A stretch of 14,241 nt of DNA from Weeksellaceae bacterium. GTDB lineage: Bacteria; Bacteroidota; Bacteroidia; Flavobacteriales; Weeksellaceae. The stretch lies in the NCBI GenBank assembly GCA_022701475.1, contig JAKOOI010000333.1, positions 1-14,241 on the forward strand, in the 5' to 3' direction. Positions 209 through 14,141 of the stretch are shown here, one piece after another. Every line of letters begins with the position of its first letter. Within the stretch, counting starts at the first letter, position 1. Under the pieces are notes generated by a model. The model worked only from the letters and a program-made list of their open reading frames with translations, was not told the origin of the DNA and searched no databases. Position numbers and translations under genes: made by a program.

Positions 209-216
209 TATTTTTG
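209..216 (+). promoter_or_regulatory. -7 box of the rrf2 promoter
   Basis: TATTTTTG matches the Bacteroidetes -7 consensus TAnnTTTG at every fixed position. It ends only 5 bases before the ATG at 222, so transcription should begin at or next to the start codon. No clear TTG -33 element is visible 17-23 bases upstream. Confidence 0.55.
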
Positions 217-221
217 TGATA

Positions 222-629
222 ATGCTGTCTAAAAAATCTCAATACGCGTTTAAAGCACTGTCATATCTTGTGGAAAAAAGGAATGACGGCCCTGTTCTGA
301 TTTCTGAAATTGCAGAGCATAAGAAAATCCCGCTGAAATTCCTGGAGAACATCCTGCTTCAGCTCAGGAAAGCGGAAATCCTCGACAGTAAAAAAGGGAA
401 AGGCGGCGGCTATTTTTTCCGTGAAAATCCTGAGGATGTCAGCCTGTCCAGGATTATCCGCCTGGTGAACGGGCCGATTGCGTTGCTGCCCTGTGTCAGC
501 CTCAATTTTTATGAAAAATGCGAAGACTGCAATGAGGATCACTGCGGGCTGCACGATGTGCTCATCGAGGTCCGGGATGCTTCCCTTAATATTCTGGACA
601 GCAAAACCATCATGGACCTGGTCGACTGA
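222..629 (+). CDS. Rrf2-family transcriptional regulator, probably Fe-S binding
   Basis: A 135-residue DNA-binding regulator of the Rrf2 family (IscR, CymR, NsrR, RirA). The N-terminal winged helix-turn-helix is recognisable: LSKKSQYAFKALSYL, then a PLKFLENILLQL recognition region and a KGKGGGYFF wing. Four cysteines in the effector loop (Cys91, Cys100, Cys103 and Cys108, with His107 between) form C-x8-C-x2-C-x4-C, the region where IscR-like members bind an Fe-S cluster. Usual family length is 130-165 residues, so it is full length. A frame extending to a GTG at 216 exists, but the ATG at 222 is chosen because that GTG overlaps the -7 box. It lies directly upstream of cysH-cysD-cysN, which suggests control of sulfur assimilation in response to cysteine, sulfide or Fe-S status. 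That role is inferred from context. Confidence 0.9.
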   Translation: MLSKKSQYAFKALSYLVEKRNDGPVLISEIAEHKKIPLKFLENILLQLRKAEILDSKKGKGGGYFFRENPEDVSLSRIIRLVNGPIALLPCVSLNFYEKCEDCNEDHCGLHDVLIEVRDASLNILDSKTIMDLVD

Positions 630-657
630 TCCTGCTCTTTTTCACGAAATTGTTAGT

Positions 658-672
658 CTACTTATTTGGTAG
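658..672 (+). promoter_or_regulatory. Candidate operator in front of cysH
   Basis: CTAC-N7-GTAG is a short inverted repeat in the rrf2-cysH intergenic gap. It covers the TTTG at 665-668 that would act as the -33 element for cysH, so a bound repressor would block the promoter. The adjacent Rrf2-type regulator is the natural candidate, but four-base arms are weak evidence alone. Confidence 0.35.
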
Positions 673-696
673 GATAATTATTTTATCAGATATTTG
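665..696 (+). promoter_or_regulatory. Promoter of the cysH-cysD-(cysN) operon
   Basis: TTTG at 665-668 and GATATTTG at 689-696 (7/8 to TAnnTTTG) are separated by 20 bases, within the 17-23 spacing of Bacteroidetes promoters. Predicted transcription start is near 702, leaving a leader of about 17 bases before the cysH ATG at 719. Confidence 0.5.
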
Positions 697-718
697 TATT
701 ACTTCAAATGAATAAACA

Positions 719-1411
719 ATGATTTCAACAGAAGATGCAGATACGCTGAAACAGCTTCCGGCAGAGGACGGACTGAAATTTATCTCGGCCCTGTTTCCCG
801 AAGCAGCGGTTTTTTCCACTTCACTCGGCCAGGAAGATCAGGTACTCACCGATATGATTTTCCGCAACAGGCTTCCGGTACAGGTCTTTACACTCGATAC
901 AGGAAGGCTTTTCAGTGAGCATTACGACCTTCTTTCCCAGAATAATTCAAGATACGGAATCCGGACAAAAGTATATTTCCCGGAGGCATCCGATGTAGAA
1001 AACTTTGTAAACGACAAAGGGGTCAATGCATTCTATCATTCGGTTGAAAACAGGAAAGCGTGCTGCTTTATCCGCAAGGTGAAACCTTTGAACCGGGCAC
1101 TTCAAGGAGCAAAAGTCTGGATTACCGGCCTTCGCTCCGAACAGTCGGAAAACCGTGAGGGAATGCCGGTCATCGAGTGGGATGAAGAGCGGCAGCTGTA
1201 CAAATACAATCCGCTGATTGACTGGAATTACCGGCAGGTGCTGGAGTACCTGGAGCAATATAAGGTTCAGCAACTTCCGCTGCATAAAAAAGGGTTCATC
1301 AGTGTGGGTTGCCAGCCCTGTACAAGAGCCATTACCGAAGGCGAAAACCCGAGGGCAGGACGCTGGTGGTGGGAGAGTTCACACAAGGAATGCGGCCTGC
1401 ATTCCCGTTAA
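719..1411 (+). CDS. cysH: Adenylyl-sulfate (APS) reductase, thioredoxin-dependent
   Basis: Reduces adenylyl sulfate to sulfite plus AMP using thioredoxin, in the cytoplasm. The 230 residues show the PAPS/APS reductase fold: an STSLGQED nucleotide loop (33-40), TLDTGR (58-63) and TGLRSEQSENR (136-146). The diagnostic CC (115-116) followed by RKVxPL, plus CQPC (198-201), are the four ligands of the [4Fe-4S] cluster found in APS-type enzymes and absent from E. coli-type PAPS reductases. The C-terminal KECGLH (223-228) carries the catalytic Cys225. The presence of the cluster cysteines argues for APS as substrate, fitting the lack of any cysC kinase here. The ATG at 719 has no Shine-Dalgarno sequence. 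It is followed by cysD after 20 bases, so the two are surely co-transcribed. Confidence 0.95.
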   Translation: MISTEDADTLKQLPAEDGLKFISALFPEAAVFSTSLGQEDQVLTDMIFRNRLPVQVFTLDTGRLFSEHYDLLSQNNSRYGIRTKVYFPEASDVENFVNDKGVNAFYHSVENRKACCFIRKVKPLNRALQGAKVWITGLRSEQSENREGMPVIEWDEERQLYKYNPLIDWNYRQVLEYLEQYKVQQLPLHKKGFISVGCQPCTRAITEGENPRAGRWWWESSHKECGLHSR

Positions 1412-1431
1412 TTTAAATTTTTAATTCATTC

Positions 1432-2340
1432 ATGGATATACCGAAATTAGACTATCTGGAACAGCTGGAAGCAGAAAGCATTTACATGATGCGTGAAGTA
1501 GCGGCGCAGTTTGAAAAGCCGGCCCTGCTGTTCAGCGGCGGAAAGGATTCCATTACACTGGTGCATCTGGCCGAAAAAGCATTTGCTCCGATGAAAATAC
1601 CGTTTCCTTTGGTACACATCGATACGGGCCATAACTTTCCTGAGGCTCTGCACTTCAGGGATCAGCTGGCAGAAAACAGAGGAACAGAGCTGATTGTACG
1701 GAAGGTGGAAGATACCATCAGGACAAAAAACCTGGCGGAGCCCAAAGGCAAATTTCCTTCCCGTAACTGGCTGCAGACCCATACCTTGCTGGATACCATC
1801 GAGGAGTTCGGTTTCGATGCCTGTATCGGCGGTGCCCGGAGGGATGAAGAGAAGGCAAGGGCCAAGGAACGTTTTTTCTCCGTCCGCGATGAGTTCGGGC
1901 AGTGGGACCCGAAGCTGCAGCGCCCCGAACTCTGGAATATCTATAACGGAAGGATCAGCAAAGGCGAAAATGTGCGGGCATTCCCGATTTCCAACTGGAC
2001 GGAGCTGGATGTCTGGAACTACATCCGCAAAGAAAACATTCAATTGCCCTCCATTTATTTTGCCCATGACCGCGATGTGATTGAACATGAAGGCCAGCTG
2101 ATTGCCGCATCGGATTTTATCCGGGTTGATGAACAGGATACGGTGGTTACGAAAAAAGTCCGCTACCGGACCGTAGGAGACATGACGTGTACTGCTGCTG
2201 TAGAAAGCGCAGCCGGAGCGCTGGATGAAGTCATCAACGAAATTACGGCATCACGGATCTCCGAACGAGGGGAAACGAGGATTGATGATAAAGTCACTGA
2301 AGCCGCAATGGAAGACCGGAAAAAAGGAGGCTACTTTTAA
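1432..2340 (+). CDS. cysD: Sulfate adenylyltransferase subunit 2
   Basis: Catalytic subunit of ATP sulfurylase: forms APS and pyrophosphate from sulfate and ATP, working with the CysN GTPase. At 302 residues it matches the family length. It has the PP-loop FSGGKDS (34-40), the HIDTGHNFPE segment, and the CysD signature GGARRDEEKARAKERFFS (about 134-151), which contributes nucleotide and sulfate contacts. The C-terminus ends in RKKGGYF, typical of CysD. It starts 20 bases after the cysH stop. Unusually, its partner cysN does not follow directly: a 161-base spacer with inverted heptamer tracts intervenes, so stoichiometry may be influenced by that spacer. Confidence 0.97.
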   Translation: MDIPKLDYLEQLEAESIYMMREVAAQFEKPALLFSGGKDSITLVHLAEKAFAPMKIPFPLVHIDTGHNFPEALHFRDQLAENRGTELIVRKVEDTIRTKNLAEPKGKFPSRNWLQTHTLLDTIEEFGFDACIGGARRDEEKARAKERFFSVRDEFGQWDPKLQRPELWNIYNGRISKGENVRAFPISNWTELDVWNYIRKENIQLPSIYFAHDRDVIEHEGQLIAASDFIRVDEQDTVVTKKVRYRTVGDMTCTAAVESAAGALDEVINEITASRISERGETRIDDKVTEAAMEDRKKGGYF

Positions 2341-2343
2341 TTG

Positions 2344-2371
2344 GTAATGAGCAATAAGTAATGGGTAATAT
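2344..2371 (+). repeat. Heptamer tract, left arm (4 units)
   Basis: Four consecutive 7-base units, GTAATGA, GCAATAA, GTAATGG and GTAATAT, begin right after the cysD stop codon. They share a GYAATRR pattern. They are roughly complementary to the tract at 2464-2491, so the pair could fold into a long imperfect stem around a 92-base AT-rich loop. Confidence 0.75.
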
Positions 2372-2463
2372 TTAATTCGTGATATACCCTATTGCTAAAT
2401 TTATTCACAAATAATTAAATATAAAATAAAAAATGATGAGAGATGGGTATGCGTAATATTGAA

Positions 2464-2491
2464 ATTACTCATTGCCCATTACTTATTACCC
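2464..2491 (+). repeat. Heptamer tract, right arm (4 units, inverted)
   Basis: Four consecutive units, ATTACTC, ATTGCCC, ATTACTT and ATTACCC, are the reverse-complement pattern of the left arm. The tract ends 10 bases before the cysN ATG at 2502. The reading frame runs open through it to an upstream TTG at 2472, but those residues are encoded by the repeat and should not be taken as protein. Confidence 0.75.
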
Positions 2492-2501
2492 ATATAAAAA
2501 C

Positions 2502-3743
2502 ATGGACATACTAAGATTCATTACTGCCGGAAGCGTGGACGACGGGAAGAGTACCCTGATCGGAAGGCTTTTGTATGACAGCAAAAACATACTGGCCGAT
2601 CAGCTTGAAGCACTGGAGAAGCAATCCAAAAATAAAAATGAAAACGGTATCGACCTTGCGATTTTAACAGACGGTTTAAGAGCTGAAAGGGAGCAGGGAA
2701 TTACGATCGATGTGGCATACCGCTATTTCTCGACACCGAAAAGAAAGTTTATTATCGCCGATGCGCCGGGACATATTCAGTATACAAGAAATATGATCAC
2801 CGGTGCATCAAACTCTCAGCTGATTATTATTCTCATTGATGCCAGGCAGGGAGTGATTGAGCAGACCCGGAGGCATTCGATGATCGCTTCGCTGCTGAAA
2901 ATGAAAAATGTGGTTGTGGCCATCAATAAAATGGATCTTGTAGAATATTCGGAGGAGGTCTTTAACGGTATCAAAGCTCAGTATGAACCGGTAGCAAAAA
3001 AACTGGGGCTGGAAAATATAAGGTATTTCCCGATTTCCGCATTTTGCGGAGACAATATTGTCGGCAGATCTGAGAATATGACCTGGTATGAAGGCCCGGC
3101 ATTGCTGGATTTCCTGGAAACGGTTGACGTGAATTCGGATCAGGACTTCAGGAGCCCGAGATTCCAGGTGCAGTATGTGATCCGCCCGCAGACGGATGAA
3201 CTGCATGATTACAGAGGCTATGCCGGAGAAGTGATTTCCGGAGTCTATAAAAAGGGGGATGAAATTACCGTGCTTCCGCAAAATATTCAGACAAAGATTT
3301 CAAAGATCGAAACCGGAGGAAAAGAAGTGGATGCCGTCTTTGCCCGTCAGCCCGCCGTTCTGCATACGGAAGATGATATCGATATCAGCCGCGGCGATTT
3401 TATCGTAAAGACTGATGAACTTCCGAAGGTGGAAAACGAAATCGAAGCCATCGTCTGCTGGCTCGATAAAAAGGTATTGAATGAAGGAAACAAATACTTT
3501 ATTCAGCACAAAAGCAAGGTGGTAAAAGCAATTATCAAAGAAATCGATTACAAAATTGACGTGAATACCCTGGAAAGAATACCGGTTCCGGATAACATCA
3601 CCTTAAACGAAGTGGCAAAAGTGCGTTTAAAAACAGCTTCACCGCTGGTGTATGACCGTTTTGAAGAAAGCAGTGCTACGGGAAGCGCTGTTCTGATTGA
3701 TGAAACAAGCCATTCAACGGTAGGTGCGGTAATGATCTTATAA
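2502..3743 (+). CDS. cysN: Sulfate adenylyltransferase subunit 1 (GTPase)
   Basis: Regulatory GTPase subunit of ATP sulfurylase, coupling GTP hydrolysis to APS synthesis by CysD. The 413 residues contain all translation-factor GTPase motifs: GSVDDGKS P-loop (10-17), AEREQGITID switch I (61-70), DAPGH (87-91) and NKMD (142-145), followed by EF-Tu-like beta-barrel domains. It ends with a CysN C-terminus and has no fused APS kinase (CysC) domain, unlike CysNC proteins. Together with APS-type CysH this means PAPS is not made by this cluster. The start at the ATG of 2502 gives MDILRFITAG, the family's usual N-terminus; an upstream TTG at 2472 would add residues encoded by repeat DNA. It is followed 10 bases later by the TauE-like gene. 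Confidence 0.96.
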   Translation: MDILRFITAGSVDDGKSTLIGRLLYDSKNILADQLEALEKQSKNKNENGIDLAILTDGLRAEREQGITIDVAYRYFSTPKRKFIIADAPGHIQYTRNMITGASNSQLIIILIDARQGVIEQTRRHSMIASLLKMKNVVVAINKMDLVEYSEEVFNGIKAQYEPVAKKLGLENIRYFPISAFCGDNIVGRSENMTWYEGPALLDFLETVDVNSDQDFRSPRFQVQYVIRPQTDELHDYRGYAGEVISGVYKKGDEITVLPQNIQTKISKIETGGKEVDAVFARQPAVLHTEDDIDISRGDFIVKTDELPKVENEIEAIVCWLDKKVLNEGNKYFIQHKSKVVKAIIKEIDYKIDVNTLERIPVPDNITLNEVAKVRLKTASPLVYDRFEESSATGSAVLIDETSHSTVGAVMIL

Positions 3744-3753
3744 ATTAAATCAG

Positions 3754-4638
3754 ATGGTAATTTCAAGAAAAGTCCGGCTCAGGCTGAATGTGTTTTTTGC
3801 TACGGCGGCCGTCTTGCTGATCGCCGTTTTTTCAATGTACGAGATGGGGTATCTCGATGAGCTGATGACGGTTCTGGCAAAAGACAATTACATTTTCTAC
3901 TGGATGCTTCTTGTCGGCTTTCTGGCAGAGATTGTTGCCGGTTCTATGGGAATGGGATACGGTGTGATCTGTACGACTACGCTTTTGTTTATCGGAATTC
4001 CTCCGCATGCGGTGAGTGCCAGCATCCATTCGGCCGAAAGTTTTACCACGGCAGCAGGCAGCATCAGCCATATCAGGCTGAAAAATGTCAGCAAGGGCCT
4101 TGTTAAGAAATTAGCCATTCCGGCAGTTATTGGGGCGGTTATCGGTGCGGTTTCATTAACTTTCTTAGGGGAATATTATTCTAAAATCACCAAAACGGTT
4201 ATCTCATTCTATACTCTGTACTTGGGAATCCGGATTTTATCGAATGCCTTTAAGGAAAAACAGGATAAAAAGCTGAAAAGGAAAACCAATTTGACGAGGC
4301 TCGGAGTGATCGGCGGGTTTAGCGATTCTTTTGCCGGCGGCGGCTGGGGGCCTCTGGTAACGGGAACGCTGATCAGAAATTCTTTTACGCCGAGGTTTGC
4401 GGTTGGAAGTTCTACCGTTGCAAAATTCGTTCTCACCCTTACGGCCGCCATTACCTTTATATTTACCCTGGGCATCCAGCACTGGAATATCATCCTTGGC
4501 CTGCTGATCGGCGGCATCGTCACGGCTCCCTTTTCGGCGATGCTTACCGCAAAGCTTCCGGTAAAAAGCATGTTTGTGGTCATCGGTACCCTGGTCATCA
4601 TCATGAGTTCCATTACTATTTACAAATCAGTTTTTTAG
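3754..4638 (+). CDS. TauE/SafE-family membrane transporter, probably sulfur oxyanion
   Basis: A 294-residue inner-membrane protein of the TauE/SafE (DUF81) family, with about eight hydrophobic segments. Two pseudo-repeated glycine-rich motifs, GFLAEIVAGSMGMGYG (55-70) and GGFSDSFAGGGWGPLVTG (187-204), mark the two halves of the internally duplicated fold. A basic loop (about 166-182, EKQDKKLKRK) separates them. It lies 10 bases after cysN and is clearly in the cys operon. Family members are annotated as sulfite or sulfoacetate exporters, but several clustered with sulfate activation genes have been proposed to import sulfate. No other sulfate permease gene is visible here, so import is an equally good reading. 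Direction cannot be decided from sequence. Confidence 0.85.
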   Translation: MVISRKVRLRLNVFFATAAVLLIAVFSMYEMGYLDELMTVLAKDNYIFYWMLLVGFLAEIVAGSMGMGYGVICTTTLLFIGIPPHAVSASIHSAESFTTAAGSISHIRLKNVSKGLVKKLAIPAVIGAVIGAVSLTFLGEYYSKITKTVISFYTLYLGIRILSNAFKEKQDKKLKRKTNLTRLGVIGGFSDSFAGGGWGPLVTGTLIRNSFTPRFAVGSSTVAKFVLTLTAAITFIFTLGIQHWNIILGLLIGGIVTAPFSAMLTAKLPVKSMFVVIGTLVIIMSSITIYKSVF

Positions 4639-6182: not shown

Positions 6183-6752
6183 TCAGAGTTTTGATTTTAA
6201 TCTGCTCAGCGTTTGCGGCGTGAGGCCCAGATAAGAGGCAACCATTTTGTTTGAAAGCCTGGTCAGTAATTTCGTTTGATGGGTTAAAACCCAACGGACC
6301 TTTTCGATGGCCTCCAACTTCTGAAAGCAGTAGATGCGTTCCTGGGATCTGATATAGGCTGACTCCAATACCTGCCGGTAAATGAAACCGAATTGCGGAA
6401 CCGTTTCCACCAGATGGAAGTAGTCTTTGCGGCTGATCATAAGCAATTCAGAAGGTTCCGGAGTCTGCATAGATTCAAAGGCAGGTCTTTGATTGATGAA
6501 GCTCGATAAAGCCGTTGCGAAAGCATCTTCAAAATGAAAATACCTTGTACTTTCCTCTCCTTTGTCAGTTATGCTGAAAAACCTTGTACAACCTTTATTG
6601 ATAAAATAATAATGTCTGCAGATCTCACCTTCTTTCACCAGGAATTCGTTTCTCCTGGTCTTTTTCAATTGAAAAAAGGAACAGATATAGGAAATCGTCT
6701 TATCATCAATGGCTGTCCTGGTGGTCAAATATTTTTCTAATTGGCTGTACAT
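6183..6752 (-). CDS. Crp/Fnr-family transcriptional regulator
   Basis: A 189-residue regulator with an N-terminal cyclic-nucleotide-binding-like beta barrel (about 25-115; EFLVKEGEICRHYYFINKG at 36-54) and a C-terminal helix-turn-helix (about 165-189, SNKMVASYLGLTPQTLSRL). This short form is very common in Flavobacteriia. The ligand pocket does not show the FGExA-x-RSA motif of true cAMP receptors, so cAMP binding is unlikely, and there is no Fnr-type N-terminal cysteine cluster. Members often control a neighbouring gene; here the NmrA-like gene follows in the same direction with an inverted repeat placed like an activator site. A TCCATTTG box (minus strand, 6791-6798) could be its -7 element. 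The signal is unknown. Confidence 0.9.
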   Translation of the reverse strand: MYSQLEKYLTTRTAIDDKTISYICSFFQLKKTRRNEFLVKEGEICRHYYFINKGCTRFFSITDKGEESTRYFHFEDAFATALSSFINQRPAFESMQTPEPSELLMISRKDYFHLVETVPQFGFIYRQVLESAYIRSQERIYCFQKLEAIEKVRWVLTHQTKLLTRLSNKMVASYLGLTPQTLSRLKSKL

Positions 6753-7608: not shown

Positions 7609-8916
7609 CTATTTCACGATTAACTTTTTCGTTTCTGTGCTTCCACCAAAGGAGATTTTCACCAGGTAGTTCCCGGAAGACAGGTGGGAAAGGTTCAGGT
7701 CCTGCTTATAGAACCCGGCCTGGTTCGTCAGTTCAGCCGAATATACTTTTTTGCCCGACAGGTCATAGACTTCTGCCTGTCCTTTGCTGTTTACCTTTTC
7801 CTTACTGTCAAACAGAACGGTCACCTGCCGGTCTGCCGTTGTCGGATTAGGATAAATCCCGAAAGTTGATTTTGTGCCGGCAATGTCTGTCACCCCAAGT
7901 ACGGAAGTGATATTTTTATATTTGAAATACATATTCCCGGTCGAACTTCCTTCGTTGGAAGTAAAGTACATCCTGTAATATTCGGATCCCTGTTTCACGT
8001 AATAGACAACGTTGGAATAAGGGGCTCCCATAGCCGGTTTCCAGGAATGGCCGATGGTGGTGATATTGCTGGAAAATGCATTGGAAGCGGGCAGGGTGGA
8101 AGTAGCGGTAGCCTGTGTTTCCGGCTGTGCTTTGGCCACGGTGATATTGGTGTTCTGGATCACACCGGCCATACGGTATTTCATGGTGGCAGGCTGTCCG
8201 GTATTCGGGTCGGTGTAGGCATAATCGGTCCAGTACCGCGTGAACATCAGGTCCCAGCCCGTTCTGGAAGGCTCCAGGGAAGGTACTTTTTCACCTGTGG
8301 TAAAGGAGAAATAATTGAAATAGGCATCGTCTGTTCCGTTGGCGATGGTTCTGGAAACCGTAGCATCCCAGGAAGAGGTAGCAGCGTTCCATCTGGCATA
8401 TTTAAAAGTGTAGCCTCCGAAATAGTCATCGATCATGAATTTGTAAAAGACGTTGGAAGGGTATTTCAAAATAAAAATTACTTTTCCTTCTACGTGGTGG
8501 TTTCCCGGATTGTATTCACCCCAGCCGTAAGTTGCAGTTCCCTGCTCAAAAGCGCCCTGCTGAATGCTGGTGGTATTGTCAAGGTTGTACAATGGTGCTC
8601 CGTATGCTGAAACGGTATTGGTAGTAATGGAGTTCCAGTCATTCGGATTATTGGAAGCCTGGTAAACTTCCACATTCTGTGCATCATTGATCCGTGTACC
8701 GAAGCTCATTGAAGAATTCCTGTAAAAAGCAATATCCCAGCTGTTGGCAGCCTGTGAAACCATACTATTGGCGCTGATATCATAAAATACACGGTTCTGG
8801 TAAGACGGGCCCATGGTCATATTGACGGTTGTATAGCCGTTGGCATCTGCCTGTGCGGAAACGGCCTGCTGAATTCCCAGTGCAAAAAGTGCTGATAAAA
8901 GTAATTTTGTCTTCAT
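7609..8916 (-). CDS. HmuY-like heme-binding protein with T9SS sorting domain
   Basis: A secreted protein of 435 residues. A signal peptide (1-21, ending AVSA) exports it through Sec. The central region (about 28-335) has the HmuY-family landmarks: WDIAFYR (60-66), WDLMFTRY (221-228) and EYYRMYF (312-318), all recurring in the HmuY lipoprotein gene of this window. The C-terminal domain (about 350-435) has IYPNP, VYDLSGKKVY and GNYLVKI, ending KLIVK, a standard type IX (type A) sorting domain. It should therefore reach the cell surface or medium without a lipid anchor. Heme binding is inferred from the family; His140-His141 are possible ligands but unproven. It has its own promoter module and terminator. 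Compared with ordinary HmuY, the sorting domain is an added module. Confidence 0.8.
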   Translation of the reverse strand: MKTKLLLSALFALGIQQAVSAQADANGYTTVNMTMGPSYQNRVFYDISANSMVSQAANSWDIAFYRNSSMSFGTRINDAQNVEVYQASNNPNDWNSITTNTVSAYGAPLYNLDNTTSIQQGAFEQGTATYGWGEYNPGNHHVEGKVIFILKYPSNVFYKFMIDDYFGGYTFKYARWNAATSSWDATVSRTIANGTDDAYFNYFSFTTGEKVPSLEPSRTGWDLMFTRYWTDYAYTDPNTGQPATMKYRMAGVIQNTNITVAKAQPETQATATSTLPASNAFSSNITTIGHSWKPAMGAPYSNVVYYVKQGSEYYRMYFTSNEGSSTGNMYFKYKNITSVLGVTDIAGTKSTFGIYPNPTTADRQVTVLFDSKEKVNSKGQAEVYDLSGKKVYSAELTNQAGFYKQDLNLSHLSSGNYLVKISFGGSTETKKLIVK

Positions 8917-8933
8917 ATCAAAAAGCAGTTTAT

Positions 8934-9002
8934 TATTTAGAATTATTCTACAAAACTAATTAATTATTTTTAACTATTCTAAATAAAACATGATTTTTGT
9001 CG
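8934..9002. promoter_or_regulatory. Iron-type divergent promoter module, copy A
   Basis: This 69-base module matches 9926-9994 at 61 of 69 positions without gaps. For the minus-strand gene starting at 8916, the complement of 8951-8958 reads TAGTTTTG, a perfect -7 box, and the palindrome TAGAAT-T-ATTCTA (8938-8950) covers the predicted transcription start. The plus-directed side has ATTCTAAATAA at 8976-8986 and GATTTTTG at 8992-8999, a -7 box damaged at its first base. TTATTTAGAAT (8933-8943) and ATTCTAAATAA form an 11-base inverted repeat. Binding by an iron-responsive repressor such as Fur is inferred from the target genes. Confidence 0.75.
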
Positions 9003-9069
9003 TGTCTTTTGATATCCGGATTCATTACAGTATTCATAAAACCCGGATATTGTATTATGTAAACACAAA

Positions 9070-9100
9070 ACCGGCCTGCGAAAAAAATCGACAGGCCGGT
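9070..9100 (-). terminator. Intrinsic terminator for the adhesin-like gene
   Basis: ACCGGCCTG (9070-9078) pairs perfectly with CAGGCCGGT (9092-9100), nine G/C-rich base pairs with a 13-base loop. On the minus strand it is followed by TTTTGTGTTT. It lies about 30 bases past the stop codon of the gene ending at 9132, separated from it by a GT-rich simple repeat (9106-9126). It isolates that gene from the downstream promoter module. Confidence 0.85.
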
Positions 9101-9131
9101 ACAGCGTGTATGTATGTGTGTGTGTGATTAA

Positions 9132-9914
9132 TTATTTTTTAATAAATTTTGATTTGATGGCCTGGTTATCTGCCGTCTCCATGATGATGTAATACGTACC
9201 GGTCTGAAGGGTACTGATGTCAAAAGACGAACCTGCCAAACTGCCTGCAGCCACTTTCTGGCCTGCTGCGGAATAGATCCGGATATCTTTTGGGGCTTTT
9301 TTCGCCACAAACTGCAAAGCGGTCTGATCTGCACTCACGGCATAGCTGATCTCTTCTTTTGTCTTAACCTGGTCTGAAACAGCCAGGGAGGAGGAAGCGG
9401 TAAGGACCACATCGTCAATCAGGATAGCAGCATGCGCTACATTCCCGATAAACCGGAAAGCGATATATTGGGAAGAAGAAGCCGGAACCGTATAGCTGAG
9501 GGTCTGAACGGTGGTTGAAGAAACGGTTACCGCACTGCCAATCGGGGTAAAGGTAGACATATCGGTATTGCTGGAAACCAGTCCAATCTGTACTGATCCT
9601 GTGCCTCCGGATCCTGTGGTCTGTGCTACCTTGAAAGATAGCGTCTGGCTTCCGGTAGGGGCTGCGATCTGTGGGGTAATGGCGTAAAATGGCGCATTGG
9701 GCGTAAAGAAGGTATAGGCCTGCAGATATTTGTTGCCATTGGCTGCATCAGGATACATCCGTTGTCCTGAAAGGACGCTGGTCCATCCGTTCTGTGGCAG
9801 GGGATTTCCCGATCCGGTATTGAAAGTCTCAAAATTCTCGTTGATAGAAGCTACTTGCGCATGTGCTGCGACAGCCGTAAGCATCAAAGTTCCAATAAGT
9901 AGTCTTAATTTCAT
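9132..9914 (-). CDS. T9SS cargo protein with cleaved-adhesin/choice-of-anchor-J-like domain
   Basis: A 260-residue secreted protein. A signal peptide (1-20, VAAHA|Q) is followed by a jelly-roll domain (about 24-172) that starts NENFETFNTG, contains LPQNGW (39-44) and ends ILIDDVVLT (164-172). This pattern is typical of the cleaved-adhesin and choice-of-anchor J families, which include the adhesin/hemagglutinin domains of Porphyromonas gingipains and HagA. The last 75 residues (IRIYSAAGQKVAAG, then TYYIIMETAD and a KSKFIKK end) are a T9SS sorting domain, lacking the usual PNP motif. Its promoter sits back to back with that of the TonB receptor and has the same operator, which ties it to heme uptake. 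Hemoprotein binding is a hypothesis; a general adhesin is the alternative. Confidence 0.75.
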   Translation of the reverse strand: MKLRLLIGTLMLTAVAAHAQVASINENFETFNTGSGNPLPQNGWTSVLSGQRMYPDAANGNKYLQAYTFFTPNAPFYAITPQIAAPTGSQTLSFKVAQTTGSGGTGSVQIGLVSSNTDMSTFTPIGSAVTVSSTTVQTLSYTVPASSSQYIAFRFIGNVAHAAILIDDVVLTASSSLAVSDQVKTKEEISYAVSADQTALQFVAKKAPKDIRIYSAAGQKVAAGSLAGSSFDISTLQTGTYYIIMETADNQAIKSKFIKK

Positions 9915-9925
9915 AACGTTATTTT

Positions 9926-9994
9926 TATTTAGAATTATTCCACAAAATTACATATTTATTTTTAACTATTCTAAATAAAGCATTATATTTGTCG
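9926..9994. promoter_or_regulatory. Iron-type divergent promoter module, copy B
   Basis: A genuinely divergent promoter between the adhesin-like gene (-) and the TonB receptor (+). Minus side: the complement of 9943-9950 reads TAATTTTG, a perfect -7 box, with TAGAATTATTCCA (9930-9942) over the start point. Plus side: TATATTTG at 9984-9991 is a perfect -7 box about 20 bases before the ATG at 10011. TTTATTTAGAAT (9924-9935) and ATTCTAAATAAA (9968-9979) form a 12-base inverted repeat, one half near each promoter, so one regulator could control both directions. It is nearly identical to copy A. Confidence 0.8.
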
Positions 9995-10010: not shown

Positions 10011-12143
10011 ATGAAGAAGAAACTGCTTTCCGTCCTGTCTTTATCCGCTGTCCTTTACGTCCATGCACAGGAAAAAGATTCCCTCAGCCAGACGAAAATA
10101 GAAGAGGTGGTCATCACCGGGCAGTATATGCAGCAGTCGATTAACAAGTCGATCTACAAGGTTGAGGTGATTGATGCGCAGCAGATCAAAAATATGGCGG
10201 TGACTACAGCCGCAGAAGTTCTCAATCAAAATCTTAATATCCAGATTGTTCCTGATGCCGGTGATGGAAATTCCAGTGCCAATATCCTGGGACTTAACGG
10301 TGCTTATACTAAAATTCTCATCGACAATATTCCTGTAGTCAATGACCGCGGAAGCGGAAACCAGACTGATCTCAGTAAAATCAATGTGAATAATATTGAG
10401 CGTATTGAAATCGTAAAAGGTGCAATGGGCGTAGAATATGGCAATAATGCGGTAACCGGAGTTATTAATATCATTACCAAAAAAACCTATTTCCAAAAGT
10501 TCAATGCCAATGTTTCTTTACAGGAAGAAACGGTAGGAAAGGATTATGACTGGTTTAAAAAAGGAAATGGCAGGCATGTACAGTCTTTGAACCTGGGATA
10601 CAGGATTAACGACCGCTGGACAATAAGCGCAGACATCAATCACAACGATTTTCAGGGGTACAAAGGAAAATATAATGGCTATACCTATTTCAGCGAAAAA
10701 GATAACGGATTCCGCGGATATGAATGGCTTCCCAAAGACCTGCTTGTTACGAATGCCTCGATAAGATATGCAAAAAATAATACTTCATTATTTTATAAGA
10801 TAAATTACCTTCGCGAAGACATCAATTTTTACAGTCAGAATGTAGAAGAGCTTCCTCTTGGCGGTGGAAACAGAACCTATGTGGGCAATGATAGAGATTA
10901 TTTTACCAACCGTTGGATTCATCAGTTCAATATTCAGACAAAACTGGGAAGGATCAATTACCTGGGAGATCTTTCTTATCAGACCCAAGAGAGGCAAACC
11001 CAGGATTACAGATATGATGTCCCGGCCAGGCAGGAAATGTCCCGGTCTGCAAAAAATACTTACTATGATTCCAAGGTGCTGTATTCCAGAGGGATGTTCA
11101 GTAATTTCCTGGACAGTGAAAAGATCAATTTCCAGTTGGGATATGAGCTGGACCGTACAAGCGGTTTTGCTAATTCAGCAACTTTCCAGAGTATAGAAAA
11201 AAGAGAAGATGTCAACAGGGCTATTTTCAGTTATGCCAATTTCATTTCTGCAGAATGGAAAGTTTCTGATCAATTCTCATTGAGACCCGGATACAGATTA
11301 TCACTAAGCGACAGGTTCGATTCTCAGAGTAATTATTCACTAACAGCAAGGTACAGTACTTCAGAAAGTTCTGACCTCCGTGCGGTGTTTGGTTCTTCCA
11401 ACAGATTTCCCACTTATGAAGAACTCTACAGCTATACGGTAGATGCAAACCATGATATCCGGGGAAATGAAAACCTGACTCCGGAAACAGGATATTCTGC
11501 AGGGCTTTTCTGGGATTATAAAACCGGTATTGCAGATACCTGGAAATTTGATATCAGCCTTTCCGCATTATATCTTGATGTTAAGGACAGAATAGAAAGT
11601 GCAGTAATCAGCAATAGCCCGCTAAGGTATACCTATCTCAATATCAACAAATACAATTCAATACTTTTCGGAGGTGGATTTTCAGCCGGGCGGAACAATT
11701 TTTCCATGAATGCAGGAATTTCTGTAATGGGAATTTCTCAGGAACTTATTGCCGGAAATATAACTTCTCCGGATGATTACAACTTCTACGCGGAAGCCAA
11801 CCTGGCGGTAAATTATAAATTGCCCCAGGCAAAAACTTTATTTGCGCTCTATTACAAATATACCGGCGAGCGAAAGCAGTTTGTACAGGAAATAACATCC
11901 AATATTTCTGCAACTCCTCATTTTATTCTTGGTGAAGTAGGAAGCTTTAATATGCTCAATTTTACTGTTGCCCAACCTTTTTTCAATAACCATTTCGAAA
12001 TTGGTGCCGGGGTAAAAAATATATTCAATGTAAGCAGTGTAAGAAACTCCATACAGTCCGGCAGTGCTCATAATGCTGCAGCGTCAGACCAGAACCTTTT
12101 CTATGGCAGAAGTTATTTTGCCCGCCTGAATTATAATTTTTAA
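10011..12143 (+). CDS. TonB-dependent heme receptor (HmuR-like)
   Basis: An outer-membrane receptor of 710 residues that would import heme using TonB energy. A signal peptide (1-20, VLYVHAQ) precedes a TonB box-like EEVVITG (31-37), then the plug (about 40-158) with LNGAYTKILIDNIPV (95-109) and IERIEIVKGAMGVEYGNNAVTGVINIITK. The rest is a beta barrel. NRFPTYEELY (near 465) and GNENLTPETG (near 485) correspond to the FRAP and NPNL motifs of heme receptors. It ends in a terminal Phe, as outer-membrane barrels do. It lacks the SusC-type N-terminal carboxypeptidase-like domain. The ATG at 10011 is preferred over a TTG at 10002, which lies too close to the predicted transcription start near 9998. 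The HmuY gene follows 10 bases later. Confidence 0.9.
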   Translation: MKKKLLSVLSLSAVLYVHAQEKDSLSQTKIEEVVITGQYMQQSINKSIYKVEVIDAQQIKNMAVTTAAEVLNQNLNIQIVPDAGDGNSSANILGLNGAYTKILIDNIPVVNDRGSGNQTDLSKINVNNIERIEIVKGAMGVEYGNNAVTGVINIITKKTYFQKFNANVSLQEETVGKDYDWFKKGNGRHVQSLNLGYRINDRWTISADINHNDFQGYKGKYNGYTYFSEKDNGFRGYEWLPKDLLVTNASIRYAKNNTSLFYKINYLREDINFYSQNVEELPLGGGNRTYVGNDRDYFTNRWIHQFNIQTKLGRINYLGDLSYQTQERQTQDYRYDVPARQEMSRSAKNTYYDSKVLYSRGMFSNFLDSEKINFQLGYELDRTSGFANSATFQSIEKREDVNRAIFSYANFISAEWKVSDQFSLRPGYRLSLSDRFDSQSNYSLTARYSTSESSDLRAVFGSSNRFPTYEELYSYTVDANHDIRGNENLTPETGYSAGLFWDYKTGIADTWKFDISLSALYLDVKDRIESAVISNSPLRYTYLNINKYNSILFGGGFSAGRNNFSMNAGISVMGISQELIAGNITSPDDYNFYAEANLAVNYKLPQAKTLFALYYKYTGERKQFVQEITSNISATPHFILGEVGSFNMLNFTVAQPFFNNHFEIGAGVKNIFNVSSVRNSIQSGSAHNAAASDQNLFYGRSYFARLNYNF

Positions 12144-12153
12144 AATATTGACA

Positions 12154-13239
12154 ATGAAAAAAATAATACTCGGACTTTTAGTAGTTACCTCCCTGATAAG
12201 CCAGTCCTGCATAAACGACAATGAAGACCCGGTAGCGGTTTCTCCTATCCAGGGAAGTATTGCAGACCCGTTGGTGGGCGGGCCTACGGAGCCTAACCAA
12301 GTCTGGTTTGATTTAAGCGAAAACAAATCTGCTATTACCAAAAGAACGGAATGGGATCTTGCATTTTATTCAGGCAGTACCTTTAAAGTTATTTTAAATT
12401 CATCCATCATGATGGCAGCCGGAAAAATTCCGGGTGCTACCAATATAGATCTTGTCACCGAAGCCGATGTTTCAGCACTTAAGACACAAGTGCAGGTAGC
12501 CAATTTTAATCCTTCCAATGAAGTATATATTGATGATGTAAAAGGAAATTTCCCGAATGGATATACGGCAGTCGAAGAAATTAAAGCTGAAGACTCACAA
12601 AACGCAGTCTATTTGCTGAATTTGGGTAAAGAAATCTATACGGGAACCGTAGCGGAAGGAGCCGTAGCCACGTCCGGAGATGCCCGCGGATGGATGAAAA
12701 TCCAAATCGTGAGATCTGGTGAAGGATATATAATCAAGTATGCAGAGCTGAATGCAACAGAGCATAAAAAAATTACAGTTGTCAAAAATACCGCCTATAA
12801 TTACAATTTCATAAGTCTGAAGAATGATAAAGAAGTATCCATCCAGCCAGAAAAGAAAAAGTGGGACCTGTGTTTTACTGTTTTTACCAATATTATTGAT
12901 GGAGCAGGGAGCTATATCTTTGCAGATTTTGTTACCCATAATAATGTAGGCGGTGTAGGGGCTTATGAAGTGGCTGTAGCTTCCGGATCAGGTGTTGAAG
13001 CATACAATAACTTTAAAGCATCGGATATTGATCCTGCTAAATTCGTTTATGACGATCACAGGATCATAGGTGCCAATTGGAGAAATCCTGTAGGGACAAA
13101 TGGGTTGGAAGTATATGGAAACCGTTTTTATGTTATCAAAGATGCAAGCGGATATTACTTTAAACTTAGATTTACAAGGCTTACGAAAAGCGGAACCAAG
13201 GAAAGAGGCTACCCTCAGTTCGAATACAAACCTTTATAA
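12154..13239 (+). CDS. hmuY: HmuY-family heme-binding surface lipoprotein
   Basis: A 361-residue lipoprotein. The signal peptide (MKKIILGLLVVTSLISQSC) ends in Cys19, followed by INDNEDP; acidic residues here resemble the surface-export signal of Flavobacteriia lipoproteins. HmuY landmarks are WDLAFY (67-72), WDLCFTVF (237-244) and GYYFKLRFTRL (about 333-343), with the family's usual end GYPQFEYKPL. In P. gingivalis HmuY takes heme from host proteins and passes it to the HmuR receptor, and the gene order receptor-hmuY here is the same. The length exceeds the roughly 215 residues of P. gingivalis HmuY because of an extended middle. The ATG at 12154 is chosen over a TTG at 12148. Heme ligands cannot be assigned by eye. 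Confidence 0.88.
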   Translation: MKKIILGLLVVTSLISQSCINDNEDPVAVSPIQGSIADPLVGGPTEPNQVWFDLSENKSAITKRTEWDLAFYSGSTFKVILNSSIMMAAGKIPGATNIDLVTEADVSALKTQVQVANFNPSNEVYIDDVKGNFPNGYTAVEEIKAEDSQNAVYLLNLGKEIYTGTVAEGAVATSGDARGWMKIQIVRSGEGYIIKYAELNATEHKKITVVKNTAYNYNFISLKNDKEVSIQPEKKKWDLCFTVFTNIIDGAGSYIFADFVTHNNVGGVGAYEVAVASGSGVEAYNNFKASDIDPAKFVYDDHRIIGANWRNPVGTNGLEVYGNRFYVIKDASGYYFKLRFTRLTKSGTKERGYPQFEYKPL

Positions 13240-13262: not shown

Positions 13263-14141
13263 ATGAAAAAATTCATTCTTGCCGTCTCCGTGCTGGTTGC
13301 CGTATATTCCTGCAAAAAAGAGGAAGGCACCAAAACAGGAAATGCTACGGAACTAAGCCAGGAAACGCCCAGATCCAATAATAAAATCATTACCCTGAAC
13401 GGAGGAATTACGGAAATCGTTGCGGCTCTGGGCCATGAAAAAGAAATTGTAGGAACGGATGTCACCAGTACCTATCCGGAATCACTGAAAGCGACGGCCA
13501 AAGACCTGGGACACGTACGGTCTATGACCATTGAGCCGATTATGGCCGTTTCCCCGACCCTGATTTTAGCTTCGGATAAGGACATCAACCCTGCACTGCT
13601 GGGGAAAATAAAGTCTTCCGGAATTAAAACCGAGGTATTCAGTCAGGAATTTACGGTAGACGGAACCAAAAAGCTCATCGCTGATGTAGCCAAAACCATC
13701 GGAAGCAACGATTACCGGAAGCTGAACGATAAAATCGATGCCGATCTGAAACAGATCCGGCCGATGGCCAAAAAGCCGAAAGTCCTGTTCATCTACGCCA
13801 GAGGGAATATGCTGATGGTTTCCGGAAAAAATACACCGATGGCTTCTTTAATTGAAATTGCCGGCGGAGAAAATGCCGTAAACGATTTCGAAGATTTTAA
13901 GCCGTTAACCCCGGAAGCCGTTGTAAAAGCAAACCCTGATGTGCTGTTTTTCTTTACCAGCGGGCTACAGGGTGCCGGAGGAAATGAAGGGGCTTTAAAA
14001 ATGCCGGGGGTTTCACAGACCAACGCCGGGAAGAACAAGAAAATTATTGCCATGGACGGAGGCCTGGTTTCAGGTTTCGGACCGAGACTGGGAGAAGCTG
14101 CGGTTGGATTAAACAAACTGCTCATTGAGAACACGAAGTAA
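13263..14141 (+). CDS. hmuT: Heme ABC transporter substrate-binding lipoprotein
   Basis: A 292-residue class III solute-binding protein (HmuT/HutB/ChuT type) that hands heme to a FecCD-type permease. The lipoprotein signal ends at Cys17 (VAVYSC). Family landmarks are NGGITEIVAALG (46-57), IVGTDVTSTYP (62-72), the LGHVRSMTIEPI stretch (82-93), FIYARGNMLMVSG (176-188), FKPLTPEAV (212-220) and FGPRLGEAA (272-280). Tyr71 of the YP motif is the likely heme ligand by analogy with HmuT/ChuT. It lies 23 bases after hmuY and overlaps the next gene by 17 bases, so it is part of the same operon. Oddly, CKKEEG after the lipid anchor resembles a surface lipoprotein export signal, although the protein should face the periplasm. 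Confidence 0.92.
   Translation: MKKFILAVSVLVAVYSCKKEEGTKTGNATELSQETPRSNNKIITLNGGITEIVAALGHEKEIVGTDVTSTYPESLKATAKDLGHVRSMTIEPIMAVSPTLILASDKDINPALLGKIKSSGIKTEVFSQEFTVDGTKKLIADVAKTIGSNDYRKLNDKIDADLKQIRPMAKKPKVLFIYARGNMLMVSGKNTPMASLIEIAGGENAVNDFEDFKPLTPEAVVKANPDVLFFFTSGLQGAGGNEGALKMPGVSQTNAGKNKKIIAMDGGLVSGFGPRLGEAAVGLNKLLIENTK

Follow-up and report, generated by a model that had tools for sequence, protein, structure and literature searches.

Two near-identical promoter modules with predicted Fur operators at the junctions of a Chryseobacterium haem-uptake locus

Two 69-bp modules with predicted Fur operators flank an adhesin-like gene in a haem-uptake locus of Chryseobacterium (the window, that is, the whole stretch of DNA analyzed here, is 14,241 nucleotides long). 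Quite probably, both modules descend by copying from a single ancestral promoter-operator cassette with two Fur operators, which would have been duplicated when the adhesin gene was inserted, and the copy that does not face the receptor gene would carry a third input.

Results

Layout of the two modules

Positions 8934-9002 and 9926-9994 align without gaps at a constant offset of 992, with 61 of 69 identities; realignment confirmed this match, claimed in the initial annotation, together with its unbroken 24-base block (8964-8987 versus 9956-9979). The top ungapped 69-mer shared by the two intergenic regions (215 and 87 bases) had the same 61 identities, compared with a mean of 33.6 (standard deviation, 1.7) and a maximum of 41 in 2000 dinucleotide-preserving shuffles of both regions, which bears out the view that shared ancestry or strong selection is likelier than chance. 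When aligned with 34 modules of relatives, taken from both positions, the resulting set of 36 covered 58 columns with a mean column identity of 90%. No Rfam element above the gathering threshold was found in the whole window.

Promoter elements were called with TAnnTTTG, which we take to be the flavobacterial -7 consensus. Each module has a perfect minus-strand -7 box, just as had been annotated: that of the HmuY-like gene at 8951-8958 (plus-strand letters CAAAACTA) and that of the adhesin-like gene at 9943-9950 (plus-strand letters CAAAATTA). On the plus strand, an exact -7 box is present in module 2 only, where it belongs to the receptor gene (TATATTTG, 9984-9991); module 1 has none and carries a different conserved palindrome at that place. 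The term "divergent," which had been applied to both modules, therefore fits module 2 but not module 1. Module 1 is a predicted one-way promoter of the HmuY-like gene, with its own predicted third operator. The inverted repeat noted earlier is present in both modules, with half-sites TTATTTAGAAT and ATTCTAAATAA at 8933/8976 (module 1) and 9925/9968 (module 2), but it is better read as two Fur-type operators per module.

Genes of the locus

The gene that module 1 would drive (7609-8916, minus strand) encodes a secreted protein of 435 amino acids in which Pfam and NCBIfam models recognized a T9SS tail only (E ≤ 1e-3). Since its product had no match to PF14064, the Pfam HmuY model, at E ≤ 1e-3 and was connected by blastp (23% identity, E 4e-9) to the HmuY protein encoded at 12148-13239, we call it HmuY-like only. 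The adhesin-like gene (9132-9914, minus strand, 260 amino acids) encodes a protein with a T9SS tail and profile matches to Kgp K3 (E 4e-4) and K1 (E 7e-3), while the Pfam cleaved-adhesin model did not match it. Its AlphaFold model (pLDDT 88.5, pTM 0.63) superposed on Kgp K1, K2 and K3 with TM scores of 0.61 to 0.68 by target length. Four glycosidase or carbohydrate-binding chains outranked Kgp by E-value with poor superposition, and other carbohydrate-binding jelly rolls fitted about as well as Kgp, so that the fold alone does not fix the function of the protein. Sequence profile and predicted fold together assign it a gingipain-type cleaved-adhesin domain. An NCBIfam model for a T9SS surface endonuclease of Riemerella matched the same protein far below its cut-off (53 versus 260 bits).

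On the plus strand, module 2 is followed by three genes for iron or haem uptake. The first (10014-12143) encodes a haem/haemoglobin-like TonB-dependent receptor with Pfam Plug and barrel domains, which the haem-receptor models TIGR01785 and TIGR01786 matched over the full length, under their cut-offs; these models are nearest to it in length, and B12 and siderophore models match its plug too. Next come the HmuY family protein (12148-13239; PF14064, E 9e-25) and an ABC-type binding protein of the haem/siderophore/B12 class (13263-14141; PF01497, with the IsdE model below cut-off).

Regulator genes are also found in two other parts of the window. One, for a regulator with a cNMP-binding domain (CRP-like), lies near the haem locus at 6183-6752, and close homologues of it occur near the locus in only three of the named loci described below (L046, L056 and L088). 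The stretch 216-4638 holds an Rrf2-type regulator gene and then further genes, including a permease gene, which most named loci also have on the upstream side of their haem locus. Judging from their translations, we presume that the later genes of this stretch belong to sulfate assimilation and that the permease is TauE-like.

Fur-type boxes

Each module consists of two dyads of 23 bp that resemble TTATTTAGAATnATTCTAAATAA and lie 31 bp apart, with starts at 8933 and 8964 in module 1 and at 9925 and 9956 in module 2. For comparison we used the 19-mer Fur box of the flavobacterium Riemerella anatipestifer (ATTTAGAATTATTCTAAAT, from PMC5609570), for which the available parts of two reports give EMSA support (PMC5609570, PMC10986502). 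Box 1 of module 1 (8933-8955) has 2 mismatches to the 23-bp dyad and 17 of 19 matches to the Riemerella box; box 2 of module 1 (8964-8986) and boxes 1 and 2 of module 2 (9925-9947 and 9956-9978) have 3 mismatches and 16 of 19 matches each. These four are the best-scoring 19-mers against the Riemerella box in the whole window.

In both modules, box 1 overlaps the minus-strand -7 box and box 2 sits upstream of it. Box 2 of module 2 also lies just before the -7 box of the receptor gene, ending 6 bases short of it, and would thus be common to the adhesin and receptor promoters. Given their match to the Riemerella box, we read the four dyads as Fur operators on haem-uptake promoters, and Fur control is the best reading of these predicted sites. 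Among other genera, box spacings of 22, 31, 41-42 and 54 bp were seen; since these are close to whole helical turns, they suggest cooperating dimers, with the exception of the 37-bp spacing in five modules of genus g9 and in L052.

Gene orders and modules among relatives

A search with the receptor gave 79 loci of the Chryseobacterium/Epilithonimonas type, 80 with the window (the named set). Several are near-copies of one another (e.g., L019/L053 and L058/L059), so the module counts that follow are not counts of independent events. The order HmuY-like gene, adhesin gene, receptor gene was present in 57 of the 80 loci. A further 18 had adhesin and receptor genes only, one of them (L067) cut by a contig end that makes its missing HmuY-like gene uninformative; 4 had the HmuY-like gene next to the receptor gene with no adhesin gene, and the last (L029) came without upstream sequence. 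Full-text literature searches found no paper with a title or abstract opening on this Chryseobacterium locus.

On the HmuY side, two boxes 31-32 bp apart were found in 55 of the 57 modules, the others being L052, with a spacing of 37, and L033, with one recognizable box. In front of the receptor gene, the pair at the same spacing was present in all 63 loci whose neighbor is close to the receptor gene. These modules of relatives, related at both positions, agree with the initial annotation. A longer gap, of 255-515 bases, separates the adhesin gene from the receptor gene in 16 loci. All 16 retain box 2 alone before the receptor gene, and the displaced adhesin gene has the full pair in 9 of them and one recognizable adjacent box in 7. 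This pattern indicates that box 2 serves the receptor gene and the pair serves the gene for the secreted protein.

Among the 17 informative loci without the HmuY-like gene, two have relict HmuY-side modules, one a complete box pair (L018, 4908-4961) and the other a single box (L060, 4781-4803). In six loci (L015, L016, L019, L021, L022 and L053), the adhesin is a single open reading frame of 420-448 amino acids with two tandem adhesin domains, so two separate adhesin genes were ruled out there; L217 alone has two genes. The extra spacer DNA between adhesin and receptor genes in displaced loci L035, L039, L045, L054 and L057 contains repeats resembling TTATCATTWTC.

Proposed insertion and copying

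Outside the genus of the window (Chryseobacterium, g1), we examined 40 of the 48 listed genomes with a receptor match. Within the 24 loci that belong neither to g1 nor to g9, the HmuY-like gene faces the receptor gene in 9 (g3, g10, g17, g25, g26 and g32), a weak adhesin-like gene (26-27%) occurs in 2 (g10), and the remaining 13 lack both genes in the stretch examined; none of the 24 had an adhesin homologue of at least 37% identity at the locus. The 16 loci of g9 comprise 10 with both genes, 4 with the HmuY-like gene only and 2 with the adhesin gene only. Thus, in relatives that lack the adhesin gene, the HmuY-like gene directly faces the receptor gene in six other genera, as the initial annotation would have it.

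The HmuY tree, a quick one rooted by choice on g17 and with SH-aLRT support only, places the HmuY-facing sequences of g10, g25, g26 and g3 outside the group that holds all 66 sequences from loci with both genes. Sequences from HmuY-only loci recur inside this group (L066, L041 and L042 of g1, several of g9, and g32), and the tree needs 5 gene-order changes against a shuffled mean of 15.8. Together, the 9 loci of other genera and the HmuY tree support, in outline and as an ancient event, the proposed history in which the HmuY gene once faced the receptor gene and the adhesin gene was inserted along with a promoter copy. The simplest history would be one adhesin insertion before the split of g1 and g9, followed by losses; transfer of the finished locus between genera could mimic such a single ancient insertion. 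The order HmuY-like gene, adhesin gene, receptor gene, in which both junctions have a module, is old, being shared by 57 of the 80 named-set loci. With an insertion of this apparent age, the 61 of 69 identities would reflect selection more than recency.

The receptor tree (equally quick, and without L093 on account of its short reading frame) had 26 changes over four states, with g1 and g9 mixed. This mixing suggests that receptors have probably been exchanged between g1 and g9 at a conserved locus. The receptors fall into two subtypes, with about 55% and 70% identity to that of the window, and these subtypes are mixed between g1 and g9, while the HmuY tree separates the two genera.

We also considered gene conversion between the two copies. 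A simple permutation test came out positive (0 of 10000), although relatedness confounds it. When nearest relatives served as the reference (31 pairs), the effect amounted to 0.24 base of 54, with 12 pairs up, 5 down and 14 ties (p = 0.067), and gene conversion is not claimed.

The modules might instead owe nothing to copying: the adhesin gene would have brought or evolved its own Fur-type promoter, and selection for one optimal layout would have made the two alike. Purifying selection here is plainly strong, other spacings (22, 41-42 and 54 bp) have evolved at the locus across genera, so that Fur promoters can arise anew, and the direct test for exchange was, as stated, not significant. We nevertheless hold independent origin to be unlikely, since the 31-bp spacing and the way in which the imperfect arms differ between the two boxes are idiosyncrasies common to both modules, and, among the matches listed for 17 genomes, no other site comes close to the modules in score. 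A further argument comes from L217 (g9), where two adhesin genes are accompanied by three modules. The nonfacing modules of this locus are identical at 63 of 69 positions, compared with 49 and 48 against the receptor-facing module, which points to a gene and its module duplicated together. Copying of an ancestral cassette is thus the reading that we retain.

A third dyad in modules that do not face the receptor gene

To the right of box 2, at the place of the receptor -7 box, HmuY-side modules have the pattern TGA[TC]N4[AG]TC, with longer arms in Chryseobacterium. FNR and CRP operators have the same dyad symmetry, and the core of the FNR consensus is TGATnnnnATCA. In module 1, the dyad spans 8987-9006 (pattern match with one mismatch), about 42 bp from the center of the -7 box and near -52 from the estimated start site. 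The pattern was present in 66 of the 75 modules that do not face the receptor gene and in none of the 80 that do; its strict form, TGATN4ATCA, occurred in 10 of the 75 and 0 of the 80. Plain letter shuffles of each 45-base flank gave a mean of 0.5 per set, with maxima of 5 (nonfacing) and 3 (facing).

The pattern was spotted in the data in which it was later counted, so the count is descriptive and not a test, while the contrast between the two sets is independent of this. From the 80 loci of the named set, the count takes in modules whose two recognized boxes lie 29-34 bp apart; modules of g9 and g32 were added by hand, 37-bp spacings among them. Outside the count lie the L018 relict, the L033 and L052 modules on the HmuY side and the seven one-box displaced adhesin modules. 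L070 and L223, both within the 80 facing modules, are apparently the same genome (identical HmuY rows). Of the nine misses, four were adhesin modules whose flank is unrelated (L037, L040, L069 and L080) and five were HmuY-side near-misses (L016, L022, L032, L046 and L088).

The position of the dyad is fixed. Its center lies 10-11 bases past box 2 in 55 named-set cases and 21-23 bases past it in 11 g9 cases, a difference of one helical turn. A 20-bp form of the dyad, with at most one mismatch, was found at this locus in all six genomes searched, one of which had an additional one-mismatch site elsewhere; two-mismatch sites were about as frequent as those of a backward control pattern in the six genomes. 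Dyads of the form TGATnnnn[AG]TCA are also seen at other positions beside the receptor genes of distant genera (L195 and L196 of g10, L184 of g4 and L198 of g18).

The palindrome of module 1 probably represents a second regulatory input, to which a regulator would bind; the genome of the window has eight HTH_Crp_2 matches, the six above the cut-off being candidate regulators. It is also tentatively plausible that each cassette freed from the receptor gene recruited an FNR/CRP-type operator, 11 bp (Chryseobacterium) or 22 bp (g9) past box 2 and possibly independently. In that case, the position of the receptor gene and not the identity of the neighboring gene would set the wiring, with the secreted haem-capture genes on iron plus a second signal (e.g., oxygen or nitrosative stress) and the receptor gene on iron alone.

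Alternatively, the dyad might be a functionless remnant, the decayed receptor -7 region of the upstream copy, and the CATGATATTTGTC of HmuY-side modules does resemble the CATTATATTTGTC of receptor-facing ones. This is improbable, however, because a palindrome would not survive decay. Here, symmetric arms are kept across the genus, at an offset of 10-11, in 55 modules of the g1 set. In 11 g9 modules, a dyad with that core sits one helical turn farther from box 2, at a place where it could not be this remnant. An additional operator in the nonfacing copies is the interpretation that we carry forward.

Predicted regulator of the boxes

The genome of the window has one FUR-domain gene (PF01475 match above cut-off), an assignment that rests on the domain match and would also fit a sister regulator of Fur. 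Nine other sites in this genome differ from the box core at no more than 2 positions, but just one of the nine precedes an evident iron-uptake gene, and a wider Fur regulon with the same box is not claimed here. That one site is a near box on another contig, 28 bp before a siderophore-type receptor gene that is incomplete in its locus.

Alternatively, the boxes could be read by another member of the Fur family (e.g., PerR- or Zur-like) or by a haem-responsive regulator. Related Fur-family proteins read similar 7-1-7 dyads, the single FUR-domain gene comes from an assembly that is 73% complete, and few other iron genes carry the box. We consider such a regulator quite unlikely because the genes here are haem-uptake genes and the boxes belong to the same 19-mer as the EMSA-supported Fur box of Riemerella, where, in the available part of the account, mutation of fur or of the box derepresses rhuH. 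Fur thus remains the predicted regulator of all four boxes.

Locus specificity

A blastn-type search of the genome of the window found the two module copies only (second copy, E 4e-20), along with a 75% reverse-complement self-match that arises because the module itself is roughly palindromic. This assembly (3.09 Mb in 602 contigs) is 73% complete, so the absence of the module elsewhere in it is partial evidence. The sequence-only two-box model R1 was run on 17 genomes. Among the matches listed (at most 150 candidates scored per genome), full matches (E < 1e-9) were found at this locus only, one or two per genome; weaker ones, down to about E 2e-4, also came from the locus, as single boxes, variant boxes or readings of the opposite strand, and the best match away from it had an E of 0.003. 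A dispersed or mobile repeat (e.g., MITE-like) inserted here twice, which the partly palindromic nature of the module might suggest, is scarcely credible and is refuted at the sensitivity of these searches: among the matches listed, all 17 genomes have their one or two full copies at this locus, and the positions of the modules relative to the genes are conserved. The earlier reading of the modules as something other than a dispersed repeat stands in the 17 genomes.

Discussion

We propose that each cassette would hold two Fur operators about three helical turns apart over flavobacterial -7 promoters. With plentiful iron, both boxes would be occupied by Fe-Fur dimers bound to the same face of the DNA, which would obstruct the -7 regions and so stop production of the receptor along with that of the secreted haem-capture proteins; with scarce iron, Fur would be released and all these proteins would be made. 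In the ancestral state, a single cassette would have lain between the T9SS HmuY-like gene and the receptor gene. Before Chryseobacterium and g9 split, a gingipain-type adhesin gene would have been inserted between the two, and duplication of the cassette at the insertion would have let each gene retain its own switch. The receptor-facing copy would also serve the receptor gene, via box 2. At the third dyad of the nonfacing copy, an activator or a repressor probably acts in addition, which is the least certain step of the scheme.

The closest parallel is in R. anatipestifer, where one bidirectional promoter region of 122 bp, containing a Fur box, serves both rhuH and rhuR-rhuA, and where deleting fur, mutating the box or limiting iron derepresses rhuH, according to the available part of the report (PMC11967795). 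As here, a gene for secreted haem capture and one for a TonB-dependent haem receptor diverge from one Fur-box region, an HmuY-type protein is encoded downstream of the receptor gene and the box is of the same sequence class. The available part of that source describes one Fur box and one secreted gene, in contrast to two boxes per module and two secreted genes here, and mentions no second module. RhuH (8XJC) had no match to either secreted protein of the window in PDB sequence searches and was rejected as a relative of both.

In Porphyromonas gingivalis, as in the window, an HmuY family protein is found beside a TonB-dependent receptor (HmuY/HmuR), and the cleaved-adhesin fold assigned here is related to Kgp K1-K3 of the gingipains. 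Unlike the gingipains, the adhesin here has no protease part and has its own T9SS tail, and unlike HmuY of P. gingivalis, the HmuY-like protein is itself T9SS tailed. Gingipains and HmuY are reported to cooperate in haem supply in the available parts of two accounts (PMC3040768, PMC10100897). As for the third dyad, it resembles FNR/CRP operators in its core, exact in 10 of the 75 nonfacing modules, but in Chryseobacterium it usually differs from them in altered core bases and longer arms.

The apparently copied switch of this haem locus is a variant of the known Fur-controlled arrangement of a secreted gene and a receptor gene, and it would extend the Riemerella-type rhuH/rhuR arrangement to other genera with different secreted partners. 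If our reading is true, the locus offers a many-species case of gene gain without loss of coregulation, in which the switch was copied with the insertion and both copies were retained. The contrast in the third dyad between nonfacing and facing modules would show a promoter copy changing once it is freed from serving a second gene, and promoter rewiring after duplication could thus be tested in one small, replicated system.
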